Positions 35,113-47,600 of a stretch of 64,000 bases of DNA are shown in pieces. The translations under genes and the position numbers were made by a program. Origin of the DNA: Aestuariivirga litoralis (GTDB lineage Bacteria; Pseudomonadota; Alphaproteobacteria; Rhizobiales; Aestuariivirgaceae); the NCBI RefSeq assembly GCF_015714715.1, contig NZ_WAHS01000001.1, forward strand, positions 186,001-250,000, written 5' to 3'. Under the pieces are notes generated by a model. It saw nothing but the letters and a program-made list of their open reading frames with translations. It was not told where the DNA came from and ran no database searches. The first letter of the stretch is position 1. Each line of letters starts with the position of its first letter.

Positions 35113-36309
35113 ATGAATATCGACAGACGCATCATTGATCTCGTGCATGACGCCATGGCTCTGCCAGGTGATCCGTCATCGCATAGAGTCGTGTGCGCCA
35201 TGTCAGGCGGGGTGGATTCTTCCGTGGCCGCCGCGCTGCTGAAGTTGGCCGGCTATGATGTGGTCGGTATCACGCTGCAGCTTTATGATCATGGCGAAGC
35301 CATCCGCAAGAAGGGCGCCTGCTGTGCGGGCCAGGATATTCACGATGCGCGCCGCGTGGCCGCTGCGCTGGATATTCCGCATTACGTGCTGGATTTTGAA
35401 ACGCGCTTCAAGGAAAGCGTGATCGACGAATTCGTCGAAGCCTATGTGCAGGGGGCCACCCCCATTCCCTGCGTGCGCTGTAACCAGACGGTGAAATTCG
35501 CCGATCTGCTCGCCCGCGCCCATGATCTGGACGCTTCCGCTTTGGTGACGGGCCATTATGTAGAAAGCCGCGTGCTGGCCAACGGCCACCGCGGCCTGTT
35601 CACGCCCGCCGATATTGCGCGTGACCAAAGCTATTTCCTTTTTGCCACCACGCAGAAGCAGCTGGATTTCTTGCGCTTCCCGCTGGGCCTGCTGAGCAAG
35701 CCGGAAGCGCGCGCTGTGGCGGAGGAACTGGGCCTGATGGTGGCGCAGAAGCCAGACAGTCAGGACATCTGCTTCGTGCCGGATGGCAATTACGCCGATG
35801 TGATTCTGAAGCTGCGGCCTGATGCGGCAACGCCAGGCAATATTGTGGATATGGATGGCAGTGTGCTGGGCCAGCACAATGGCATCATCCATTACACGAT
35901 CGGCCAACGCAAAGGTTTAGGCATCGGCGGTGGAGCGCCCTTGTTTGTTGTGCGGCTGGAGGCTGATACCGCGCAAGTGGTGGTCGGCCCACGTGAAGCC
36001 TTGAAGCAGCATGATATCAGCGTAAGCGATGTGAATTGGCTGGGTGCCTTGGCACTGTCGGATCAGCCTCAGGAAGTTTTTGCCCGCATCCGCTCGACGC
36101 GTGCCCCCGTTCCCGCTTTGCTGAAGCGCGATGGGGCAGGGGCCGTGCTCACGGTGGCGGAAGGCGAATTCGGCGTATCGCCCGGCCAGGCCGCTGTGTT
36201 TTATGACGGGCAGGGCGCTGGCCAGCGTGTGTTGGGCGGCGGGTTTATCGCGCTGCCGAAAACCCGTGTCGCCTTCACTCGTTCGCAAGCGTTGCCGGCC
36301 CATGCCTAA
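35113..36309 (+). CDS. mnmA: tRNA 2-thiouridylase MnmA
   Basis: This 398-aa enzyme adds sulfur to U34 of tRNA for Lys, Glu and Gln. It has the PP-loop [10 protein letters not shown], the first catalytic Cys in [15 protein letters not shown], and the second in [12 protein letters not shown], followed by the C-terminal beta-barrel. The ATG at 35113 is chosen because residues upstream are non-conserved. The next gene starts inside its last codons. Alphaproteobacterial length and motifs are normal. Confidence 0.93.
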
Positions 36310-36907
36310 TCCCAACCGCATTGTGGAAACATGCCGCAAGGCGGTCCAGCCGCTGGTTTTCCTGCGGCAGTTTGTTGAGTCACCACGTGCGGTCGGCTCC
36401 TTTGTGCCCAGTGGCGAGCATCTGGCTGCGGCCATGGTCAAGGGCTTGGCGCCCTGTTCCGGGCTGGTGGTGGAGCTGGGGCCGGGCACGGGTGTGTTCA
36501 CCCGCCGGTTATTGGCCATGGGCATTGAACCTGCGCATTTGATGTTGGTCGAATTCAATCCGGTCTTTGCGCGCCGGCTGCGGAAAGAATTTTTGGGCGT
36601 TGATGTCGCTGAAGGTGATGCGGCAGATCTCGATATGATGCTGGCGGAACGCGGCTTGGACAAAGCAGCGCTGATCCTGTCGAGCTTGCCGTTCCGCAAT
36701 TTGCCGGCAGAGAGTGCCAGCCGCATCGTGATGGCGATGGGCCGCGCGCTGGCGCCGGGCGGCACTGTCGTTCAGTTCACTTATCGTCTCTTGCCGCCCA
36801 TCGCACCTGATGACGCGTTGCGCGCCGGGCTGGCGGGGCGGCGGCAGGAACTGGTTCTTGCCAATTTTCCGCCAGCCTTCGTCTGGCATTATGACAAGCG
36901 GGAGTGA
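36302..36907 (+). CDS. PmtA-like phospholipid N-methyltransferase
   Basis: This 201-aa protein is a class I SAM methyltransferase with motif [17 protein letters not shown]. The [18 protein letters not shown] entry and LPFRNLP middle motif match the rhizobial/Rhodobacter phospholipid N-methyltransferases (PmtA) that convert phosphatidylethanolamine to phosphatidylcholine. The KsgA/rRNA methyltransferase family is a distant alternative. The ATG at 36302 overlaps mnmA by 8 nt. The next gene is phosphatidylcholine synthase, which strongly supports a lipid role. Confidence 0.72.
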
Positions 36908-36958
36908 TTGCGCAGGTCCACTCTCCTCTCTATAGTTTCATAAAAATGGGGAGATGCG

Positions 36959-37741
36959 GTGCCGAAGCTTCAAATCAAGCCTAGTCTCGAACATGAGATC
37001 AAGAAGGGCGTGGCCTGGTCGGTTCATGCCTTTACAGCCAGCGGCATCGTGCTGGGTTTTCTCGCGCTCGTATCGGTTCTGAAAAATGATGCCGTTGCCG
37101 CCTTCATGTGGCTGGGCCTCGCACTTTTCGTGGACGGAGTAGATGGCACGCTGGCACGGCGGGCCCGCGTGAAAGAATACACACCGAATTTTGATGGTGG
37201 CTCGCTCGATCTGGTGATCGATTTCTTCACTTACGTGGCAGTGCCGGCATTGATGATCTATTGGTTTGACATGGTGCCCGCGCCCTTCTGGTTCGGCACC
37301 CAGACCTGGAGCCTGATCATGGCGGCGCTGATCATGGCCGTTTCGCTCTATACATTCGCCAATGTGAACATGAAGAGCTTCGATTATTATTTCGTGGGCT
37401 TTCCAGCCATCTGGAATGTGGTGGTGCTGTATTTCTACCTGTTCAATACCGGCTGGGTGGTCAATTTCATCACTATCATTGGGCTTTCCATCCTCACTTT
37501 TATTCCGGTGAAGTTCGTGCATCCACTGCGCGTCACGCTGTGGCGCAATGTGACGGTGCCGATGACGGTGCTGTGGGCGGCATTGACACTCAGCCTGGTG
37601 ATTTCAGGCCGCAACCCGGACTATTCCGATTGGTCCTACAAGATTCAATTGTTCCTGTTCGGCTTCGCGTCGCTCTATTTTGCCGGCATCTCGCTGTGGC
37701 GCACCTTTGTGGTGGGCGACAAGGAAGAGGAACACGAGTGA
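36959..37741 (+). CDS. pcs: Phosphatidylcholine synthase Pcs
   Basis: This 260-aa integral membrane enzyme joins CDP-diacylglycerol with choline to make phosphatidylcholine. It has the CDP-alcohol phosphotransferase signature DGVDGTLARRARVKEYTPNFDGGSLDLVIDF within the first third and about eight hydrophobic segments. It starts with GTG behind GGGGAGA. Its neighbour at 36302 encodes the methylation-route enzyme, so both bacterial routes to phosphatidylcholine are side by side. Confidence 0.9.
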   Translation: MPKLQIKPSLEHEIKKGVAWSVHAFTASGIVLGFLALVSVLKNDAVAAFMWLGLALFVDGVDGTLARRARVKEYTPNFDGGSLDLVIDFFTYVAVPALMIYWFDMVPAPFWFGTQTWSLIMAALIMAVSLYTFANVNMKSFDYYFVGFPAIWNVVVLYFYLFNTGWVVNFITIIGLSILTFIPVKFVHPLRVTLWRNVTVPMTVLWAALTLSLVISGRNPDYSDWSYKIQLFLFGFASLYFAGISLWRTFVVGDKEEEHE

Positions 37742-38644: not shown

Positions 38645-39181
38645 ATGAAAGCGCGTTTGATGACCGAGCCCGATACTTTAACCAAGGCCCTTAAGGATGC
38701 GCGCCTCGCCGAGGCTGTGCAGCTTGATGCCATTCTGAATGCCCGCGACGCGCGGATTCTGCGTCTCGGCGCACTGCGCGATGCCGTCTTGCCGGAACTG
38801 GCCGGACACGATGCTGCCAAGACGCTGTTTGATCTCAATGTGGTGGAAGGCGAAAAGCCCAAATTGTGGATTGATCTGATCTCCTGGGTGGAGATGGAGC
38901 CCGATCCCAAGACCTACCGGCTGGTGCAATCGCGCGAGAGCGCCGAAGGCATTTTGTTCGAAACCAGTGATGCAGCAGAAATGCAGCGTTTCATCATCCG
39001 CTACATGGCACACCGCCTGGTGGAGCGCGAACGCCGCACGGTCAACACGGGTTTTGTCGGCCAAACCGTGCAGCGCCGCTATAGCTTTGGCGAGCTGCTC
39101 TATGTCTGGGCCACCGGGCTCCTGTTCGGGGTTCTGGGACTCACCGCTGTGGCACTGATCCAGGGCTGGCTGAAATTCTGA
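38645..39181 (+). CDS. Conserved hypothetical protein with a C-terminal membrane anchor
   Basis: This protein of about 178 aa is mainly helical and charged, with a conserved-looking core KLWIDLISWVEMEPDPKTYRLVQ and a single C-terminal transmembrane helix (about the last 25 residues). The anchor type suggests tail insertion with the body in the cytoplasm. I have seen similar sequences in Hyphomicrobiales but know no function. The start is uncertain among ATG codons at 38645 and 38660. Confidence 0.6.
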   Translation: MKARLMTEPDTLTKALKDARLAEAVQLDAILNARDARILRLGALRDAVLPELAGHDAAKTLFDLNVVEGEKPKLWIDLISWVEMEPDPKTYRLVQSRESAEGILFETSDAAEMQRFIIRYMAHRLVERERRTVNTGFVGQTVQRRYSFGELLYVWATGLLFGVLGLTAVALIQGWLKF

Positions 39182-39314: not shown

Positions 39315-41090
39315 GTGAACGTAACCCTTGCGGTTAATGAAAAAGCGGCAGTTCCGGTTTTGATCAAAACGCCGACCGTGAACCAGAACCTTCCGCAGTG
39401 CCAGGCCGATTTTTCCACCTTGGCCGCAGGTCTCGATTACGCCGCCCAAGGTGTGACCGGCATGAATTTCTACAGTGGCCGCGGCGCGCTTGAGCATGTG
39501 ATGCCCTATGCCGATCTGCGCCGCCGTGCCCTGGTTGTGGCGCGCAAGCTTTTGTCCACCGGCCTGAAGCGCCTCGAGCGCGTGGCCATCGTGGCGGAAA
39601 CCGGCCCGGAATTCATCATCACTTTCTTCGCCTGCCAATACGCCGGTCTTGTGCCGTGCCCAGTGCCCTACAGTATGTATATCGGTGGCCGCGAAGCCTA
39701 TGAACAGCGCATTGCCGGCATGCTCAAGGCTGCTGATGCCCATGCCGTCGTGGCGCCGAGCGATCAGGTTGAGAGCCTGCGTGCCGCTGCTGCCATGGCT
39801 GGCGTGACTCAGGTGTTTACCCACGAAGACATCGCAGCCCAGCCAGAAGCCATGTCCAAGCTTCAGGGCTTCGGCGCTGAAGACGTGGCCTATATCCAAT
39901 ATTCATCGGGTTCGACATCGGCCCCCAAGGGTGTTCTGATTTCGCAGCGTGCGATCACCACCAATGCCCGCGGCATGGTGGTTTTCGGCCTGAAGACCAA
40001 GCCTACTGATCGTGGCTTTTCCTGGCTTCCGCTTTATCACGACATGGGACTGGTGGGCTTCTGCCTTGGTCCGATGCTGTCACAATGCAGCATTGACTAT
40101 CTGGCCACCACGGCCTTTGCGCGCCGTCCCAGCCTGTGGCTGAAGTTGATGTCGGAAAACCGTTCGACGATCTCGTTTGCGCCCACTTTTGGTTACGACC
40201 TTGCTGCCAAGCGCATCGGTTCGGAAGTCTCGAAGCTTGACCTTTCGGCCTGGCGTGCTGCCGGCATTGGTGGCGACATGGTGCGCGCCGATGTGCTGGC
40301 AGAATTTGCGCGTGCGCTTGAACCTGCGAAATTCAACGGCAATGTTTTCCTGCCCAGCTATGGCATGGCGGAATCCACATTGGCTCTTTCTTTCCCGCCT
40401 ACAGGGCGCGCCATCCGCGTAGACTATATCGACAAGAATATCCTGCGCCACGAAAGCCGCGCTGTTCCGGCGGAGCAGGGTGCTGCTGATACGCGTGGCT
40501 ATGTGGCTTGCGGGCGTATTCTCCCCGGCCACCAGATGGAAGTGCGTGATGCTGCAGGCCAGGTTCTCGCTGAGCGCCTGGTGGGCCGCATCTTCGTCAA
40601 GGGGCCCAGCCTGATGAGCGGCTATTTCCACAATGTTGAAGCCACTGCCGAAGTGATCGATGATCAGGGTTTCCTGAACACCGGTGACATGGGCTATCTC
40701 ATCGATGGCGAAATCGTCATCACCGGCCGCGCCAAGGATTTGATCCTGCACAATGGCCGCAATATCTGGCCGCAGGACATTGAGTGGGCTGCCGAGCGTT
40801 ATGCCGAATTGAATTCCGGTGACGTGGCCGCCTTCGCGGTTGAAGGCGATGACGGCGACGATGAAGTTGTCGTACTGGTCGAATGCCGCAACAGCGATAC
40901 GGCCGAGCAGGAAAAGCTGCGCCATGAAGTAGCCAAGTTGGTGCATCAGGGCTCGGGCGTTGATTGCAAGATCGAGCTTGTGGCCCCGCGCAGCCTGCCT
41001 TTCACCTCGTCGGGCAAATTGTCCCGCGCCGGCGCACGGGCCAAATATCTGGCTGGTGAGATCACCATCGTTGCCCCGCACATCGCCTGA
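39315..41090 (+). CDS. Acyl-ACP/AMP ligase (FAAL family) of sphingolipid synthesis
   Basis: This protein of about 591 aa is an ANL-superfamily adenylating enzyme with the A3 motif YIQYSSGSTSAPKGVLISQ, the LPLYHDMGLVG motif, and a C-terminal GRAKDLILHNGRNIWPQDIE. The pattern fits fatty acyl-AMP ligases that load acyl carrier proteins. It heads an operon with a CerR-like reductase, an ACP and serine palmitoyltransferase in the same order as the Caulobacter ceramide genes, so it probably charges that ACP with a fatty acid. The GTG at 39315 follows GAAGG. Confidence 0.85.
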   Translation: MNVTLAVNEKAAVPVLIKTPTVNQNLPQCQADFSTLAAGLDYAAQGVTGMNFYSGRGALEHVMPYADLRRRALVVARKLLSTGLKRLERVAIVAETGPEFIITFFACQYAGLVPCPVPYSMYIGGREAYEQRIAGMLKAADAHAVVAPSDQVESLRAAAAMAGVTQVFTHEDIAAQPEAMSKLQGFGAEDVAYIQYSSGSTSAPKGVLISQRAITTNARGMVVFGLKTKPTDRGFSWLPLYHDMGLVGFCLGPMLSQCSIDYLATTAFARRPSLWLKLMSENRSTISFAPTFGYDLAAKRIGSEVSKLDLSAWRAAGIGGDMVRADVLAEFARALEPAKFNGNVFLPSYGMAESTLALSFPPTGRAIRVDYIDKNILRHESRAVPAEQGAADTRGYVACGRILPGHQMEVRDAAGQVLAERLVGRIFVKGPSLMSGYFHNVEATAEVIDDQGFLNTGDMGYLIDGEIVITGRAKDLILHNGRNIWPQDIEWAAERYAELNSGDVAAFAVEGDDGDDEVVVLVECRNSDTAEQEKLRHEVAKLVHQGSGVDCKIELVAPRSLPFTSSGKLSRAGARAKYLAGEITIVAPHIA

Positions 41091-41103
41091 GAAGCCGAAG
41101 CCC

Positions 41104-42048
41104 TTGCGTGTTGCCCTGACGGGTGGCACCGGGTTCTCCGGAGCTTTCATCCTGCCGCAGCTTCTAGCCGCCGGTTATGATGTGACCGCTTTGGCGCGCC
41201 GTCCCGAAGCGCTTGCTGGAAAATGTTCCAAGGTAATTGCTGGCGATTTTTCTCGCGATGATGTGCTGGCTAGGCTGGTTGCCGGCGCTGATGTAGTGCT
41301 GCATGTGGGCGGTGCCACCCACGCACCGAGCCGGCAGGGATTTTTCGATGTCAATCTGGCCGGTACGCAGCGGCTTTATGATGCCGCGCGCAAGGCTGGG
41401 GTGACGCGGTTTGTCTATGTGTCGTCATTGGCGGCGCGCGAACCGCAGCTTTCGGCTTATGGCGCCAGCAAGAATGCGGCGGAGCAGTTTCTGCTGCCGC
41501 TGGATTCGAAAGAGTGCAGCGTTTTGATTTTGCGTCCTCCAGCAATCTATGGTCCCGGTGACAAGGCTACTTTGCCGCTGTTCAAGTTGCTGCAATCGCC
41601 TGTGGCATTCATGCCGGGCAAGAAGGGTTCGCGCTTTTCATTGCTCTATGTCACCGACTTTGCACGCATCATATGTGATGCGGTCGAAAGCAAAGCGCAC
41701 GGCCTTTATGAGCTTGATGACCAGGCTCAGGGCTATGACTGGCAACAACTGGCGGATGCCAATCGTGCTTTGACGGGCAGGCCTTCGCGGCTGGTGCATC
41801 TGCCGCATGGCGTGGTGCATATGGCGGCGGGGCTGGCAGAAACTGCTGCACGTTTTTCTGGCAAGACCAGCACGATGAACCGCCAGAAGATCCGTGAAAT
41901 CTATCACGATGATTGGGTGGCGCGTTCCAACATCTGGCCGCTGTCCAAGCCCACACGCCTTACCGATGGCATGGCGCAAACTTTGGATTGGTACCGGGCC
42001 GAAGGCTGGTTGCCGCAGAAAAACAATAAGGCTAGAAGCGCCGCATGA
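41104..42048 (+). CDS. NAD(P)-dependent reductase, CerR-like
   Basis: This protein of about 314 aa is an extended short-chain dehydrogenase with the Rossmann start VALTGGTGFSGAFILPQLL and a later YGASKNAAEQFLL that carries the catalytic Tyr and Lys. In Caulobacter the matching gene in this order encodes the ceramide reductase CerR. The start is unsettled: a TTG at 41104 gives the conserved N-terminus, while a GTG inside the previous gene is also in frame. It overlaps the next gene by 4 nt. Confidence 0.78.
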   Translation: MRVALTGGTGFSGAFILPQLLAAGYDVTALARRPEALAGKCSKVIAGDFSRDDVLARLVAGADVVLHVGGATHAPSRQGFFDVNLAGTQRLYDAARKAGVTRFVYVSSLAAREPQLSAYGASKNAAEQFLLPLDSKECSVLILRPPAIYGPGDKATLPLFKLLQSPVAFMPGKKGSRFSLLYVTDFARIICDAVESKAHGLYELDDQAQGYDWQQLADANRALTGRPSRLVHLPHGVVHMAAGLAETAARFSGKTSTMNRQKIREIYHDDWVARSNIWPLSKPTRLTDGMAQTLDWYRAEGWLPQKNNKARSAA

Positions 42049-42293
42049 CTGAGATTACTGACATTGTTCCCGTGCTTGTGGATCTCCTCAAGCCCTTCAA
42101 TTCCGAAAATATCCCGCTGAGCGAAGCCACCGATATTCCGGCTGAGCTTAACATCGACAGCGTGGGCGTTCTAGACTTCATCATGGAAGTCGAAGATCAT
42201 TTCGATGTCGAAATTCCGATGAATGCGGTGGCCAGCATACGCACCGTGGGCGAACTCGCCGCCTATGTGCAAACCCGTTTGAACAAGGCGTGA
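42045..42293 (+). CDS. Acyl carrier protein of the sphingolipid operon
   Basis: This 82-aa ACP has the phosphopantetheine attachment Ser at S39 in NIDSVGVLDFIMEVED. It starts inside the stop of the reductase gene (ATGA). It differs from housekeeping AcpP and probably delivers the acyl chain made active by the FAAL protein to serine palmitoyltransferase, as its Caulobacter counterpart does. Confidence 0.88.
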   Translation: MTEITDIVPVLVDLLKPFNSENIPLSEATDIPAELNIDSVGVLDFIMEVEDHFDVEIPMNAVASIRTVGELAAYVQTRLNKA

Positions 42294-42296
42294 TCG

Positions 42297-43481
42297 ATGG
42301 TTGATCTTCTCGACAAGCACCGCGGCGTGATGGAGCGTTTCCAGCGCATGACGGATATGGGCATCAATGGCCTTGGCGTCACCAATGACAAGATGCTGTC
42401 GCCGACACGCGCCGTGGTGGATGGCCGTGAGATCATCCTGGCCGGCACCAACAATTATATGGGCGTGACCTTTGATCCGCGCTGCATTGCCGCCGGGCAG
42501 AAGGCTCTCGAGGAATTTGGCACCGGCACCACCGGTTCGCGCATCGCCAATGGCAGCTTCGCGCTCCACAAGGAGCTGGAGGCAGCGCTAGCCGATTTCC
42601 TGGGCCTGGAACACTGCATCATTTTCACTACCGGCTATCAGGCCAATCTCGGCATGCTGTCTGGCCTCGCCGGCCCCAAGGACACGATCTATCTGGACGC
42701 GGATTCGCATTCCTCGATCTATGATGGCTGCACGCTTTCCGGCGCCAAGCTTGTGCGCTTCCGCCACAATGACGCGGCCGACCTCGACAAGCGCTTGGCG
42801 CGCGCTGAGAATGATGGCGGTGGCCGCCTTGTGGTTCTCGAAGGCATCTATTCGATGCTGGGTGACCGCGCCCCGTTGGCTGATTTCGTGGCCCTGAAAA
42901 AGAAACATGATTTCCAGCTCTGCGTGGATGATGCGCATTCTTTCGGCGTGCTTGGTCCCAATGGCCGCGGGCTTGGTGATGAAGCGGGTCTCTCTGAGCA
43001 TGTGGATTTCGTGATCGGCACGTTCTCGAAGAGCGTCGGCGCCATTGGCGGATTCGGAGCTTCGAACCATCCGCTGTTTGAAACGCTGCGCTATGCGATG
43101 CGGCCCTACATGTTCACGGCCTCTGCCTCTCCGGCTTCGATTGCAACATCGATTGAAGCCCTGAAAGTATTGAAGGCTGAACCGGAACGCCGCGCCAAGA
43201 TCTGGGCCAATTCCGAGCGCCTCTATAACGGCCTCAAAGGCCTGGGCTTCGAGATGGGCTGCGATGTGGTGAGCCCGGTTGTTGCCGTGAAGATGCCGGA
43301 CGAGTTGACTACGATTGCCAAGTGGAACGCGCTGTTCCAGGGCGGTGTTTACGTCAACATGGCTGTTCCTCCTGGCACGCCAAACCGTCTGTGCCTGTTG
43401 CGCTGCTCGGTTTCTGCCGCGCATACCACGCAGGAGATTGACGACATTATCAGCGTGTTCAAGCAGGCGTTTGCGAACTAA
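42297..43481 (+). CDS. spt: Serine palmitoyltransferase (AOS family)
   Basis: This 394-aa PLP enzyme belongs to the alpha-oxoamine synthases. It has the GTGTTGSRIANGS motif, FTTGYQANLGML, the DDAHSFGVLGPNGRG strand, and the PLP lysine K245 in GTFSKSVGAIGGFG. KBL and BioF share this fold; the ACP/FAAL/CerR operon argues for serine palmitoyltransferase, which condenses serine with an acyl thioester to make 3-ketosphinganine, the first step of ceramide synthesis. Its stop overlaps that of the convergent lipid kinase. Confidence 0.87.
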   Translation: MVDLLDKHRGVMERFQRMTDMGINGLGVTNDKMLSPTRAVVDGREIILAGTNNYMGVTFDPRCIAAGQKALEEFGTGTTGSRIANGSFALHKELEAALADFLGLEHCIIFTTGYQANLGMLSGLAGPKDTIYLDADSHSSIYDGCTLSGAKLVRFRHNDAADLDKRLARAENDGGGRLVVLEGIYSMLGDRAPLADFVALKKKHDFQLCVDDAHSFGVLGPNGRGLGDEAGLSEHVDFVIGTFSKSVGAIGGFGASNHPLFETLRYAMRPYMFTASASPASIATSIEALKVLKAEPERRAKIWANSERLYNGLKGLGFEMGCDVVSPVVAVKMPDELTTIAKWNALFQGGVYVNMAVPPGTPNRLCLLRCSVSAAHTTQEIDDIISVFKQAFAN

Positions 43482-44443
43482 GCCGCACCAAGAATAAATT
43501 TGAATTCCGGCCCGGCCTGCACGCGCAGTGCGCCTTGTGCCGGGCCGTCGAAAAACTCGCCGTCCATCACATAAGGTTCGGGGCAGCTGATCTCGAAGGC
43601 ATCGCTCGTAAAGCTCACGCAACCCGGCGGGATATTCTTGCCGATGCGGCCATACATCAGCGGCAGGGCCCAGCGCAGAATATTCGGCGGCGGATAGGCC
43701 ACAGTGAGCGTGCGCAATGCGCCGTTGCGCGCGCCCCAGAAGGGCTGTGTGCGGAAGAAAAGGTGGTTCAGCGTGGTGGCGACGAACATCAACTGGTTGC
43801 CTTGCGCCGTAATCTTGCCATCGCAAGTCACAGTCATCGGACTGGCGCGGTCGAGGCGCGTGAGATCACCCGGTTTCGGTTTGGAGAAGGCGGCTTTGGC
43901 GAGGCCCACGGCAATCGTGGCGAAGCTGGCCATGCTGCCTTTCACGCCCTTGTCATTGTAATCGACCTGCGCGCTGCGGGTAGCGCGGGCGGCGGCACCG
44001 GCACCCAGCGTGAAGCCAAGGCGCGGCGGTGCTCCGACTGGATTGAGCACATGGATCGTATGCCGCGTGGCGACCTTGCAATCGGGCAGGGTTTTGATAA
44101 AGCGCGCTTGCGCGGCAATGCTGCCGATATGGAGGCCAATATCACCTGCCGTCAGATTGGTGGTGCCGTGCGGCAGCAGACCGATCTGGGGCAGGGTTTT
44201 GAAATTGGCCTTGCCGGCCACATGGGTGAGGATAGCTTGAATGGTGCCATCGCCCGACGAAATGAAGAGATCGGTCACGCCGTCTTTGGCGCATTGGTCA
44301 ATGGCGGGTTCGAGTTCGGCGAAGTCGGCGAACCGGTGCAGTGACAGTCCGGGCTGGTCTTTCAGTACTTGATAGAGCGCTTCTCCCTTGCCGTTGTTGC
44401 GGCCGGAAAACGGATTGATCAGAACGCCCGCGCGTCTGGTCAT
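43478..44443 (-). CDS. Diacylglycerol-kinase-family lipid kinase (ceramide-kinase-like)
   Basis: This 321-aa protein is a DAGK-catalytic-fold kinase with the opening VLINPFSGRN, the nucleotide loop FISSGDGTIQAIL (usual GGDGT is SGDGT here), the LLPHGTTNLTAGD motif, and a late YVMDGEFF acid. DAGK-family kinases phosphorylate diacylglycerol, sphingosine or ceramide. Its place next to serine palmitoyltransferase suggests a ceramide kinase like the one in the Caulobacter ceramide-phosphoglycerate pathway. The ATG at 44443 overlaps the LptG-like gene stop. Confidence 0.75.
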   Translation of the reverse strand: MTRRAGVLINPFSGRNNGKGEALYQVLKDQPGLSLHRFADFAELEPAIDQCAKDGVTDLFISSGDGTIQAILTHVAGKANFKTLPQIGLLPHGTTNLTAGDIGLHIGSIAAQARFIKTLPDCKVATRHTIHVLNPVGAPPRLGFTLGAGAAARATRSAQVDYNDKGVKGSMASFATIAVGLAKAAFSKPKPGDLTRLDRASPMTVTCDGKITAQGNQLMFVATTLNHLFFRTQPFWGARNGALRTLTVAYPPPNILRWALPLMYGRIGKNIPPGCVSFTSDAFEISCPEPYVMDGEFFDGPAQGALRVQAGPEFKFILGAA

Positions 44444-45510
44444 ACGTGATCGGTGCGCGCCAGCATGGCGAAGGCAATCGCCGCCATCACCAGCAGCGGC
44501 CCCCATGCGGCAATCCAGGGGGCCACCGCGCCGGTTTCACCCAACGTCATGGCCAGGCCGTCAGAGACGAAATAGGCAAAGCCCAGCGCCACGCCGGCCA
44601 CGAAAATCTTGCCAAGCCCACCACCGCGACGGAACGCTGTGCCGAGCGGCACACAGAGGATCACCATGACGATGGAGATGATCACCGGGGTGAGGCGCTT
44701 CTGTTCCCAGGTTTGATAGACATGCTTGGCGCGCACGCCGTACCCATCATTGGCGGCGAAGTCGCGGATTTCCGAGAAAGTCATTTCCTCGGGCGAGCCG
44801 ACGCGCTTGTTGTCGGCCAGTCGCAGCGAGCCCTCATAAGTGGCCTGGGCAACGCGGGTAGGCTTCTTGCCATCGGCATCATAGCTGGTGACATTGTTGA
44901 GCAGCCAATGGCTGTCTTTCTGGGTGGCCGTGTCAGCGAAGATTTCCGAGGTCAGCTGGCCCTGTGGTGCGCGCTTGAAGATGGTGACGTTATACAGCGT
45001 CTTGTTGTCAGCAGACATGCGGTCAGCACGCATGATGTCATTGTCGGAGCGGATCCATACAGGGTCATTCGGATTAGTGCTCAGCTTGCGGGTGGCATAG
45101 TCAGCAATGCCCCAGCTGCGCAGCGACGGGGCTGCGGCGGGCACGGCTTGGTCCATCAGCAGAAAATGCGCAACCCCGACCAGGATCGCCATGGGTAGCA
45201 ACTTGATGATGAGGCGCGAGGGTGAAATGCCGGTGGCCCAGATCGCTGTGAGCTCATTGCGGTAGGACAATTCGGTCATCGACAGGAGCAGCGCTAGCAG
45301 CAGGCTGGTCGGCAGGAACAGCGCCAGAATGCCGGGCGTGCGGGTGAGCACATAGGTGCCAACCGCCACAAAGGGATTGTTGGCAATGCGCAGCACGTCG
45401 GTGAGGAAGCCCACAACCTCAAGCGTCAGCACGAAGAAGGATAGACCCAGCAGGATCACCGCAAAGCGGATCAGGATCATGCGGGTGAGCATGCGGGCAA
45501 GGATGGACAT
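44440..45510 (-). CDS. LptF/LptG (YjgP/YjgQ)-family permease
   Basis: This protein of about 356 aa has the LptF/LptG layout: an N-terminal helix pair, LALLLSMTELSYRNELTAIWATGIS, a periplasmic beta-jellyroll part (about 120-260), and three to four C-terminal helices. In E. coli LptF and LptG form the LptB2FG ABC transporter that lifts LPS from the inner membrane. Only one such gene is here, in an operon with a ceramide kinase and a ceramide-synthase-like gene, so it may export a sphingolipid. The ATG at 45510 is used. Confidence 0.8.
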   Translation of the reverse strand: MSILARMLTRMILIRFAVILLGLSFFVLTLEVVGFLTDVLRIANNPFVAVGTYVLTRTPGILALFLPTSLLLALLLSMTELSYRNELTAIWATGISPSRLIIKLLPMAILVGVAHFLLMDQAVPAAAPSLRSWGIADYATRKLSTNPNDPVWIRSDNDIMRADRMSADNKTLYNVTIFKRAPQGQLTSEIFADTATQKDSHWLLNNVTSYDADGKKPTRVAQATYEGSLRLADNKRVGSPEEMTFSEIRDFAANDGYGVRAKHVYQTWEQKRLTPVIISIVMVILCVPLGTAFRRGGGLGKIFVAGVALGFAYFVSDGLAMTLGETGAVAPWIAAWGPLLVMAAIAFAMLARTDHV

Positions 45511-45512
45511 TA

Positions 45513-46406
45513 TCAGTTTTCCAGGTTGAAGGCCGGCTGGGCCACGAAGCCCTCGTCCTTTCCCTTCCATTGGTTGATCGTCACTCGGGTCATCCATTTG
45601 CCCGATTGGCGCGCAATTTCATAGAGGTTCCATTCGGCGGGCTGATGCGCGTGAAGCGCCATGCTGCCGGAGGGCACACCAATGGCGGGCACCCGGATGC
45701 CTGCTTCCTCCAGCCAATGCAGCTCGCGGCGATGGTTGTGGCCGTGGATCACCAGTTCCACTTCCTGTTCGCACAGGATGGTTTTGAGTTCCGCCGCATC
45801 CTGCAAGGCGCGCAACTTGGTGGCAAGGCCAGGGCCTGGCGGATGGTGGATCATCACCACGCGGCAGAAGCCCTTGGCCTTCAAATCAATGAGAAGCTGG
45901 CGCAACGAGCTGCGCTGCTTTTCACCCAACCGCCCTTCGGCACTCTGGAAGGGGCGAGGCAAAGCCGAGTTCAACCCGATCAAAGCCACGTTGCGGCGCA
46001 GGCGCACATAGGGGAAGGCTTCGGGAACGCGCATGTCTCCGGCCATGAAAGGCTCGAACAGCTTGAGACTCTTGTCATAAGCCACTTTGGCATAGAGATC
46101 ATGATTGCCGGGCACGAAGGACAGCCAATCGGGTGGGCCCAACCTGTCCATCCAGGCCCGCAGCGGTGGAAATTCCAGTGGACTGGCAATGTTCACCGCA
46201 TCGCCGGTGAAGGCTACATGATCGGGCTTTGCCGCTTGAACCGACTGCATCAGGGCATCCGCCACCTCATTGAGGTGCAGATATTTGCGGCGGAAATGCC
46301 ATGACACGGCACCAATCACCCGTTTGGGGCGAAAGGCATGGAGGGCTGCACCCCGTGGCAGCGGCCCCATATGAAGATCAGAAAAATGAGCGAGCGTGAA
46401 ATTCAC
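45513..46406 (-). CDS. Metallophosphoesterase
   Basis: This 297-aa calcineurin-like phosphoesterase shows the metal-binding set: FSDLHMG, FTGDAVN, VPGNHDLYAK, MIHHPP and IHGHNH. It is cytoplasmic by sequence, without a signal peptide, and starts with GTG. It lies between the GNAT protein and the LptG-like permease with gaps of 9 and 2 nt, so it belongs to the lipid operon. It may dephosphorylate a lipid intermediate or head group. Confidence 0.82.
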   Translation of the reverse strand: MNFTLAHFSDLHMGPLPRGAALHAFRPKRVIGAVSWHFRRKYLHLNEVADALMQSVQAAKPDHVAFTGDAVNIASPLEFPPLRAWMDRLGPPDWLSFVPGNHDLYAKVAYDKSLKLFEPFMAGDMRVPEAFPYVRLRRNVALIGLNSALPRPFQSAEGRLGEKQRSSLRQLLIDLKAKGFCRVVMIHHPPGPGLATKLRALQDAAELKTILCEQEVELVIHGHNHRRELHWLEEAGIRVPAIGVPSGSMALHAHQPAEWNLYEIARQSGKWMTRVTINQWKGKDEGFVAQPAFNLEN

Positions 46407-46415
46407 AGCGCCAGT

Positions 46416-47600
46416 TCACAGGCGCTTTTCATAGACGCGGTAAGTCTTGTAGATTCGGCTGCCCATGCTTTCGAGGATGTGGCGCACGCGCGCATTGTCT
46501 TCGAGAATCCAGGAGAATTCGCCATGCGTCACGCCGCGGCTGATCACATGATCAGATGACGCCTGGATGACTGCCAGTGCGAGGCCTGCGCCCACCGGGC
46601 CATCCTGATACTTCTTCAGCACGCCCATCAAAGGCACGCGCACTGATTTGGAGCGGCCGCGTAGCAGATGGTAGGCCAGCGTGGCCCAGCCGAAGGGCAG
46701 CAGGCGGCCATTCAGGCCCTGGAACCATTCATTGATATTGGGTGCCGCTACGCAGAAGGCGGCAGGCTCACCCTTCACATAGGCGAAGTTCACGGCTTTT
46801 TCGTCGAGCAGCATTTTGAAATTGTTGCCCATCGCCTTCACTTCAGCTGCGGTGAAGGGCACGAAATTCCAATTGTCGGTCCAGGCGTCGTTGAAGATCG
46901 ACATCATGGTGGAAATGTCTTCATCCATTTTCTTCTTGTTCAGCGGCCGCACGGTGATGCCGCCCGAAGCCATCATGCGCTTTACCATCTTGCGCAGTGG
47001 GGGGCTCAGGCCCTGGCGGTTGTCGAACTCATAGGCGTAGAGGTCCTTCACCTTCTTGTAACCCAGCGCCTCCACACGACTGCCATAATAAGGCGTGCCA
47101 TGACCCATCATCAGATTGGGGATGGTGTCAAAGCCGTCAATCAGCAGGCCGGATTCATCATTGATGGAAAAGGAGAAGGGACCGCGCACTGTTTTCATGC
47201 CGCGTTCGCGGAGCCAGCCTTCCGCCGCCTTGAACAGCGCTGCAAAAACCTCCGGATCGTCAACCGATTCCAGAAAGCCAAACTGGCCCGATGCATCATT
47301 GTAGCGCGCCAGATGCAGGTCATCGATCTGGGCGGAGATGCGGCCCACTTGCTTGCCGTCTTTTTCAGCGATGAAAAGCTGCGCCTTGGCGTGCTGGAAA
47401 TAGGGGTTCTTCTTTTCGCTCAAATGTTCCATGCGCTCAAAGAACAGCGGCGCCACCCAGTTCTTGTCACCAGCATAAAGCGCGAAGGGCACCTTCAGGA
47501 AGGTAACCTTGTCCTTATTGCCCTGAACGGGACGCACTGTAATCTGTGCCACGGTTTCCACTTCTTTGACTGCGCGATTTGCCCACTCTAAATGAAGCAT
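46416..47600 (-). CDS. GNAT-like acyltransferase, candidate bacterial ceramide synthase
   Basis: This 394-aa protein begins with the pattern FLKVPFALYAGDKNWVAPLFFE and has a GNAT-like core with AKAQLFIAEKDGKQVGRISAQID and VRGPFSFSINDESGLLIDGFD. In Caulobacter the bacterial ceramide synthase bCerS is a GNAT-like protein from the sphingolipid locus, and this gene lies in the matching place as first gene of the convergent operon. Similar rhizobial sequences are sometimes mislabelled dATP pyrophosphohydrolase. The role is inferred from family resemblance and locus. Confidence 0.65.
   Translation of the reverse strand: MLHLEWANRAVKEVETVAQITVRPVQGNKDKVTFLKVPFALYAGDKNWVAPLFFERMEHLSEKKNPYFQHAKAQLFIAEKDGKQVGRISAQIDDLHLARYNDASGQFGFLESVDDPEVFAALFKAAEGWLRERGMKTVRGPFSFSINDESGLLIDGFDTIPNLMMGHGTPYYGSRVEALGYKKVKDLYAYEFDNRQGLSPPLRKMVKRMMASGGITVRPLNKKKMDEDISTMMSIFNDAWTDNWNFVPFTAAEVKAMGNNFKMLLDEKAVNFAYVKGEPAAFCVAAPNINEWFQGLNGRLLPFGWATLAYHLLRGRSKSVRVPLMGVLKKYQDGPVGAGLALAVIQASSDHVISRGVTHGEFSWILEDNARVRHILESMGSRIYKTYRVYEKRL

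Follow-up and report, generated by a model that had tools for sequence, protein, structure and literature searches.

Gene content of the sphingolipid locus

The stretch analysed here, hereafter the window, comprises 64,000 nucleotides of an Aestuariivirga litoralis genome (G000:C1:186001-250000; the genome is 3.33 Mb in four contigs) and contains a sphingolipid locus made of two convergent gene sets. On the plus strand, aasR, cerR, acpR and spt follow one another closely. Tail to tail with them on the minus strand lie, in the same left-to-right sense, genes for a lipid kinase, an LptG-type permease, a calcineurin-like phosphoesterase and a CerS-like N-acyltransferase (Table 1). The first-pass annotation of this DNA had proposed these eight genes; all eight open frames are where it placed them. 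Seven of the eight products, all but the CerS-like protein, have Pfam matches above the curated cut-offs, and those of aasR and spt have NCBIfam matches as well. The inventory itself is not novel, since Caulobacter has similar clusters and E. coli BL21(DE3) a convergent one. New here is a genus in which two lipid A genes, lpxC and lpxB, were not found and the lipopolysaccharide (LPS) transport (Lpt) bridge is kept; in the window's genome, family searches detect no LptG-type permease other than the copy inside the sphingolipid operon.

The genes are tightly packed. There is a 4-base overlap between cerR and acpR, and no junction from CerS through the phosphoesterase and LptG to the kinase on the minus strand exceeds 9 bases, whether as a gap or as an overlap. 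Where the two sets meet, the spt stop codon (TAA, 43479-43481) overlaps that of the kinase gene (TAG, 43480-43478 on the minus strand). A purine-rich run lies directly 5' of the aasR start codon (GTG, 39315). The locus likely forms two transcription units. A promoter scan of the sequence stayed below chance (2 found against 3.5 expected) and a terminator scan was moderately over it (16 found against 10.1 expected, standard deviation 3.7). Because the gene order recurs in relatives, we do not regard the locus as a chance arrangement.

Table 1. Features of the locus and the protein directly upstream, in window coordinates
Feature	Position	Strand	Evidence
Uncharacterised protein directly upstream of aasR; belonging to the system uncertain	38654..39181	+	29 homologous open reading frames (ORFs) in relatives' loci
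aasR, acyl-acyl carrier protein synthetase (fatty acyl-AMP ligase)	39315..41090	+	AMP-binding 189.6 bits; PRK09192 757 bits, cut-off 600
cerR, ceramide/3-ketosphinganine reductase, SDR/epimerase fold	41104..42048	+	Epimerase PF01370 95.5 bits; TTG start at 41104 inferred
acpR, dedicated acyl carrier protein, DSVG phosphopantetheine site	42045..42293	+	PP-binding 37.6 bits; sequence
spt, serine palmitoyltransferase	42297..43481	+	Aminotran_1_2 162.1 bits; NF047599 575 bits, cut-off 500
DAGK-type lipid kinase	43478..44443	-	DAGK_cat 46.5 bits; SGDGT motif in sequence
LptG-type permease, spt-locus lineage	44440..45510	-	PF03739 (LptF_LptG) 218.0 bits, full length, gathering cut-off 27.9; tree
Calcineurin-like phosphoesterase, metal-site motifs intact	45513..46406	-	PF00149 (Metallophos) 40.2 bits; model pLDDT 92.5
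CerS-like N-acyltransferase, YghO / CC_1154 family	46416..47600	-	Identity to cluster genes of other bacteria

The locus carries homologues of all five ceramide-synthesis genes of C. crescentus listed in PMC11324152, and the Caulobacter-like gene order that had been predicted is borne out against the order given in that paper, the gene correspondences being drawn from domains and order rather than from sequence comparison. In E. coli the set is aasR, epi, acpR, spt and aca (yghO), with aca encoding the N-acyltransferase (PMC9386255). The window proteins are 44% (AasR), 38% (CerR) and 48% (Spt) identical to those of the E. coli BL21(DE3) cluster, and AcpR is 35% identical over 43 residues. Against NF047603, Spt scores 482 bits, under the cut-off of 670. 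The CerS-like protein is 44% identical over 376 residues to YghO of E. coli BL21, and 49% and 47% identical to cluster genes of A. vinelandii and P. luteola, respectively. It has no Pfam or NCBIfam match at E<=0.001, and the earlier 'GNAT' label is thus neither confirmed nor excluded.

The kinase gene occupies the position of the ceramide kinase gene CC_1160 (cpgB) in the C. crescentus order, and its product is 25% identical over 317 residues to the kinase adjoining spt in Kordiimonas (L079). The permease scores 205.8 bits against TIGR04408, the equivalog model for LptG of LPS export, under the cut-off of 240. The metal-site motif pattern of the phosphoesterase is kept in 39/39 homologous ORFs scored. 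Its predicted fold matches Lmo2642 (Z 27.5), GpdQ (Z 24.5) and Rv0805 (Z 24.1), and on this model we would place it among the cyclic-nucleotide/glycerophosphodiester phosphodiesterases (GpdQ/Rv0805 type). Structures of the acid sphingomyelinase family match the fold at Z 20-23 (SMPDL3A 22.8), a common fold that shows no function.

Conservation of the locus and its reduced gene set

We kept 80 of 140 loci encoding an Spt relative. Forty of them, with Spt scores >550 bits, are genus-like, a set that may include a few neighbouring genera; the relatives of the window Spt come from Aestuariivirga and other Hyphomicrobiales assemblies. In 32 of the genus-like loci the sequence extends 9 kb or more past spt; LptG, the phosphoesterase and CerS are each on the minus strand in 31 of these, and the sole exception (L051) lacks all three. 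A stricter set of 28 loci comes from the window's own genus; 25 of these have 9 kb, 24 keep LptG, phosphoesterase and CerS, and 19 keep the kinase. Upstream, aasR, cerR and acpR are present in 29/29 loci with at least 4 kb of flank. Hence the convergent operon is conserved with spt, and the objection that its minus-strand half might not travel with spt fails.

The kinase is found in 25 of the 31 operon-keeping loci and is missing from L041, L043, L044, L045, L046 and L070; it is likewise missing from the operon in L042 and L072, which have shorter flanks. Phosphorylation of the lipid, as first predicted, is therefore supported by a kinase in the window and in most relatives, but it does not appear to be a constant step. 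The phosphoesterase stays where the kinase is gone, and we reject the idea that it is a mere reverse enzyme of the kinase. Because it outlasts the kinase, we take it to be a core part of the system, where it may act as an editing or headgroup-releasing phosphodiesterase.

The locus had been called complete, and this does not hold: some relatives keep a larger cluster, of which the window has a cut-down version. In L104-type loci the minus-strand operon encodes a CC_1161-position protein, the kinase, a CDP-alcohol transferase (PF01066; CDP, cytidine diphosphate), LptG, LptF (PF03739), a HIT protein, the phosphoesterase, a nucleotidyltransferase (PF12804) and CerS. Five of these genes, those for LptF, the CDP-alcohol transferase, the HIT protein, the nucleotidyltransferase and the CC_1161-position protein, are absent from the window locus and from eight near-relative loci in which the operon is present (9/9, some cut by contig ends). 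The locus of A. litoralis KCTC 52945 (L065) has the identical convergent layout, with 44-73% identity across the eight proteins. Unlike the window, it keeps LptF next to LptG, the only one of the five extra genes present there. A search for the L104 nucleotidyltransferase was positive in 18 of 61 genomes and negative in the window's.

The C. crescentus region CC_1168-CC_1152 contains the five ceramide genes, a ceramide kinase and LptF2/LptG2-type permeases; CC_1161 is CDP-diacylglycerol-synthase-like, CC_1160 is the ceramide kinase, CC_1159 has a CDP-alcohol transferase domain and CC_1158 a phosphoesterase domain, and lptF2, lptG2, cerS and two nucleotidyltransferase genes complete the description (PMC11324152). 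CC_1160 is also called CpgB, and CpgD makes CDP-glycerate (PMC10331486, PMC12275187). The window has the ceramide genes, an Lpt-type permease and a phosphoesterase in common with this region, and a DAGK-type kinase at the CC_1160 position. Unlike it, the window locus has one permease instead of two and lacks the gene set for CPG2, a ceramide phosphoglycerate (CPG), namely the CC_1161-, CC_1159- and CpgD (CC_1153)-type genes, the CC_1161 and CC_1159 types having been sought in the loci only. We reject a full CPG2 cluster, given that the locus lacks the extra genes and that the genome search for the nucleotidyltransferase was negative, and because the three gene types are missing from the locus, CPG or CPG2 is an unlikely product. 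CPG formation in C. crescentus required both CC_1160 and CC_1161, and the pathway of the window organism is accordingly expected to end with ceramide-1-phosphate or ceramide unless other genes substitute.

In the E. coli BL21(DE3) cluster yghO-aasR-cerR-acpR-spt / lptG-lptF (NC_012971), spt is likewise convergent to permease genes and the CerS-type yghO adjoins. It differs from the window locus in that no kinase or phosphoesterase match was found among the 11 cluster proteins compared, its LptG is just 24% identical, and E. coli is LpxC-positive. RefSeq labels the permeases beside spt in this strain (L147 19921-22067) 'LPS export ABC transporter permease LptG/LptF', though they lie convergent to a sphingolipid operon.

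Lipid A genes, Lpt components and LptF/G lineages

LpxC was found in 0/37 genomes of the genus versus 22/24 other members of the order, and LpxB in 0/37 versus 19/24. C. vibrioides and E. coli, used as controls, were both positive for LpxC, and in this respect the genus differs from Caulobacter. The two LpxC-negative order members, G040 and G050, both carry spt and also gave no LpxB match. The C. crescentus-like gene order (PMC11324152) and the presence of a kinase would fit an ordinary phosphosphingolipid locus of the Caulobacter kind in cells that still make LPS, with enzymes too diverged to detect. We consider this highly improbable, as LpxC and LpxB were both missed in 37/37 genus genomes, yet the same searches find both in most order mates, and the CPG2-type genes are missing from the locus as described above.

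The Lpt bridge is kept. LptD is present in 37/37 genus genomes and in 23/24 other order members, and LptB exceeds its cut-off in 24 of the 25 genus genomes searched, the window's genome included. In the latter, the genes for LptC (44.5 bits), LptA (61.0 bits) and LptB (368 bits, cut-off 240) form a contiguous group next to rpoN; after lptD come a weak SurA-like match, PdxA and KsgA. Upstream of lptD there is an ORF on the opposite strand and no lptF-lptG, so a canonical lptF-lptG pair beside lptD is rejected for this genome; nor did we find such a pair beside lptD in 25 genus genomes, as far as contig ends allow. LptF/G-family genes do lie beside lptD in 12/14 LpxC-positive order members (a single one in G043), and in G041 and G045, also LpxC-positive, they are on contigs other than that of lptD. 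In G006, an assembly with 6% contamination, a second LptD copy (G006:C783:832-4167) lies about 1.2 kb from one LptF/G-family gene. Like the canonical LPS exporter LptB2FGCAD, the window's genome thus has a PF03739 permease together with LptA, LptB, LptC and LptD. Unlike that exporter, its LptG falls short of TIGR04408, belongs to a separate lineage, is not encoded beside lptD and is accompanied by no LpxC or LpxB match.

The genome encodes three LptF/G-family proteins: the locus copy, C2:962766-963857 and C1:83495-84547. Across 25 genus genomes the family numbers two members in 18 and three in 7, one of the 7 by way of a fragment under the cut-off. Relatives of C2:962766-963857 occur at 69-70% identity in G013, G020 and G023 and at 44% in G003, G016 and G021. 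The spt loci of G003, G013, G016, G020 and G021 lack LptF, and the spt contig of G023 is too short to tell. Since its relatives occur in genomes whose spt loci lack LptF, C2:962766-963857 is likely the LptF partner of the locus LptG. The first-pass view that the whole process is encoded at one site consequently fails, with the likely LptF partner on another contig.

We placed 90 LptF/G proteins in a tree by a quick search. LptG proteins encoded beside lptD and those of alphaproteobacterial spt loci fall into separate sets, and the present-day LptG lineages are distinct. The window LptG belongs to an 18-row set (SH-aLRT 100) that includes the spt-locus copy of G042 and excludes the G042 copy beside lptD; this LpxC-positive genome owns both kinds of LptG. 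The relocated LptF groups with spt-type LptF (98). The spt-locus copies of E. coli, A. vinelandii, P. luteola and L102 lie on the canonical side (80), apart from the alphaproteobacterial spt-locus set. For the third protein, C1:83495-84547, there is no close orthologue in the stretches compared. Its surroundings (L123, G000:C1:75000-94500) encode an inositol-phosphate-synthase-like CDP-alcohol transferase, an FGGY kinase, an ABC exporter, apparent glycosyltransferases (read from sequence) and a 1364-aa protein resembling an adenylation-domain enzyme.

Cargo of the Lpt bridge

Both PMC11324152 and PMC11087976 call the route of bacterial sphingolipids to the outer membrane unknown. In C. crescentus, Spt and CerS are cytoplasmic and CerR is periplasmic, and neither a flippase nor a transporter is reported to have been identified (PMC11087976). 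Lpt-like transport by LptC2/F2/G2 has already been proposed for C. crescentus, and sphingolipid makers lacking LPS, such as Sphingomonas koreensis, are mentioned (PMC11324152). A literature search by titles and abstract openings, with subscription journals mostly outside it, returned nothing on Lpt-borne sphingolipids in LPS-less Hyphomicrobiales.

The position of LptG in the sphingolipid operon, together with LpxC and LpxB not being found, suggests that the Lpt machine now exports sphingolipid. Outward transport had been predicted from the locus alone. The link between an Lpt-type permease and the locus stands, and the most telling fact about transport, the missing LpxC and LpxB, lay outside that earlier view. 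Judging from gene content, we lean towards a reading in which lipid A has been lost and the Lpt bridge now exports sphingolipid by means of the locus LptG and an LptF encoded elsewhere. The plus-strand enzymes would join serine and an acyl chain carried on the dedicated acyl carrier protein to give 3-ketosphinganine, which CerS and CerR, by analogy with C. crescentus biochemistry, would turn into (dihydro)ceramide at the inner membrane, and the kinase would yield ceramide-1-phosphate. LptG and the LptF at C2:962766-963857 would be the membrane subunits of an LptB2FG complex that extracts the sphingolipid (probably ceramide or ceramide-1-phosphate) and hands it to LptC-LptA-LptD for passage to the outer membrane; with lipid A apparently lost from the genus, LPS would no longer be an Lpt cargo. 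A wider version has about an even chance of being right: the whole Hyphomicrobiales genus may have dropped lipid A and turned the bridge (LptB-LptC-LptA-LptD with the spt-locus LptG and LptF) into a dedicated exporter of a sphingolipid that replaces surface LPS, after which the headgroup pathway would have shrunk stepwise, leaving kinase and phosphoesterase in the window's genome and just the phosphoesterase in sister species.

We surveyed 385 Alphaproteobacteria (Spt threshold E<=1e-75; lists crossed by eye via genome handle), of which 49 have Spt and 328 have LpxC. LpxC is missing from 29/49 spt-positive versus 28/336 spt-negative genomes (Fisher p 2e-15, without kinship correction). The 29 spt-positive, LpxC-negative genomes spread over 13 family codes, as do the 20 that are positive for both. 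LptD was sought in 77 of the 385 genomes, the 57 LpxC-negative ones and these 20. It is present in 26/29 LpxC-negative genomes with spt and 13/28 without, and in 20/20 of those with spt and LpxC.

The 13 genomes with LptD and neither LpxC nor spt, and the surroundings of the third LptF/G-family protein, with their CDP-alcohol transferase, FGGY kinase and apparent glycosyltransferases, would suit a bridge that carries another surface glycolipid or a lipid-linked polysaccharide, with LptG placed in the sphingolipid operon for shared regulation only. We think this rather unlikely, given that LptG is kept in 31/32 genus-like spt loci and falls within the spt-locus lineage, and that the third paralogue lacks a close orthologue in the stretches compared. 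LptG, with LptF, could instead be a flippase or short-range ceramide exporter that bypasses the LptB-C-A-D bridge, LptD being kept for another reason. Its sub-threshold TIGR04408 score would agree with this, as would three spt-positive, LpxC-negative genomes with no LptD match (G126, G340 and G418), yet LptB, LptC, LptA and LptD are all encoded in the window's genome and LptD in 37/37 genus genomes without an LpxC match, and we rate such an exporter improbable. The three genomes all belong to family f93, a fourth member of which has LptD, and they possibly use another sphingolipid export route.

Several observations count against sphingolipid export by the Lpt bridge. The lipid A pathway was represented by LpxC and LpxB alone, and the LpxB search also missed three LpxC-positive order members (G042, G045 and G052). 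Many genomes are fragmentary, and contig ends can cut a gene neighbourhood. G050, which has spt and no LpxC or LpxB match, retains a canonical-type LptG besides its spt-type pair. The co-occurrence counts are uncorrected for phylogeny; the 20 genomes with both spt and LpxC all have LptD, so spt does not imply loss of LPS; and LptD persists in the 13 LpxC-negative, spt-negative genomes, 7 of which are <90% complete. The missing LptD matches in G126, G340 and G418 point the same way. Approximately unbiased (AU) tests left two groupings unrejected, that of the relocated LptF together with its canonical counterparts (p 0.147) and that of canonical and order spt-type LptG as a single clade (p 0.24); they do not fix how the spt-type permeases arose. 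The genome also encodes the third LptF/G-family protein. Finally, the cargo, like the direction of transport, the complex and the lipid product, is deduced from gene content.

The genus offers a natural experiment in which sphingolipid transport is testable without LPS as a competing cargo, and it is relevant to the question of how a Gram-negative cell can do without LPS.

The protein directly upstream of aasR has no Pfam match and no PDB fold match at E<=0.001. Its model consists of a long helix, a small strand region and a C-terminal helix that is likely a membrane helix. On this shape and the lack of a PDB match, and without a direct comparison to LptC, we weakly reject it as an LptC2. Further lipid genes may neighbour the locus. 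The region at 36308-37741 (plus strand), 2-3 kb upstream, encodes a methyltransferase-domain protein (Methyltransf_25) and a membrane protein that we take to resemble a Pcs-like CDP-alcohol transferase.

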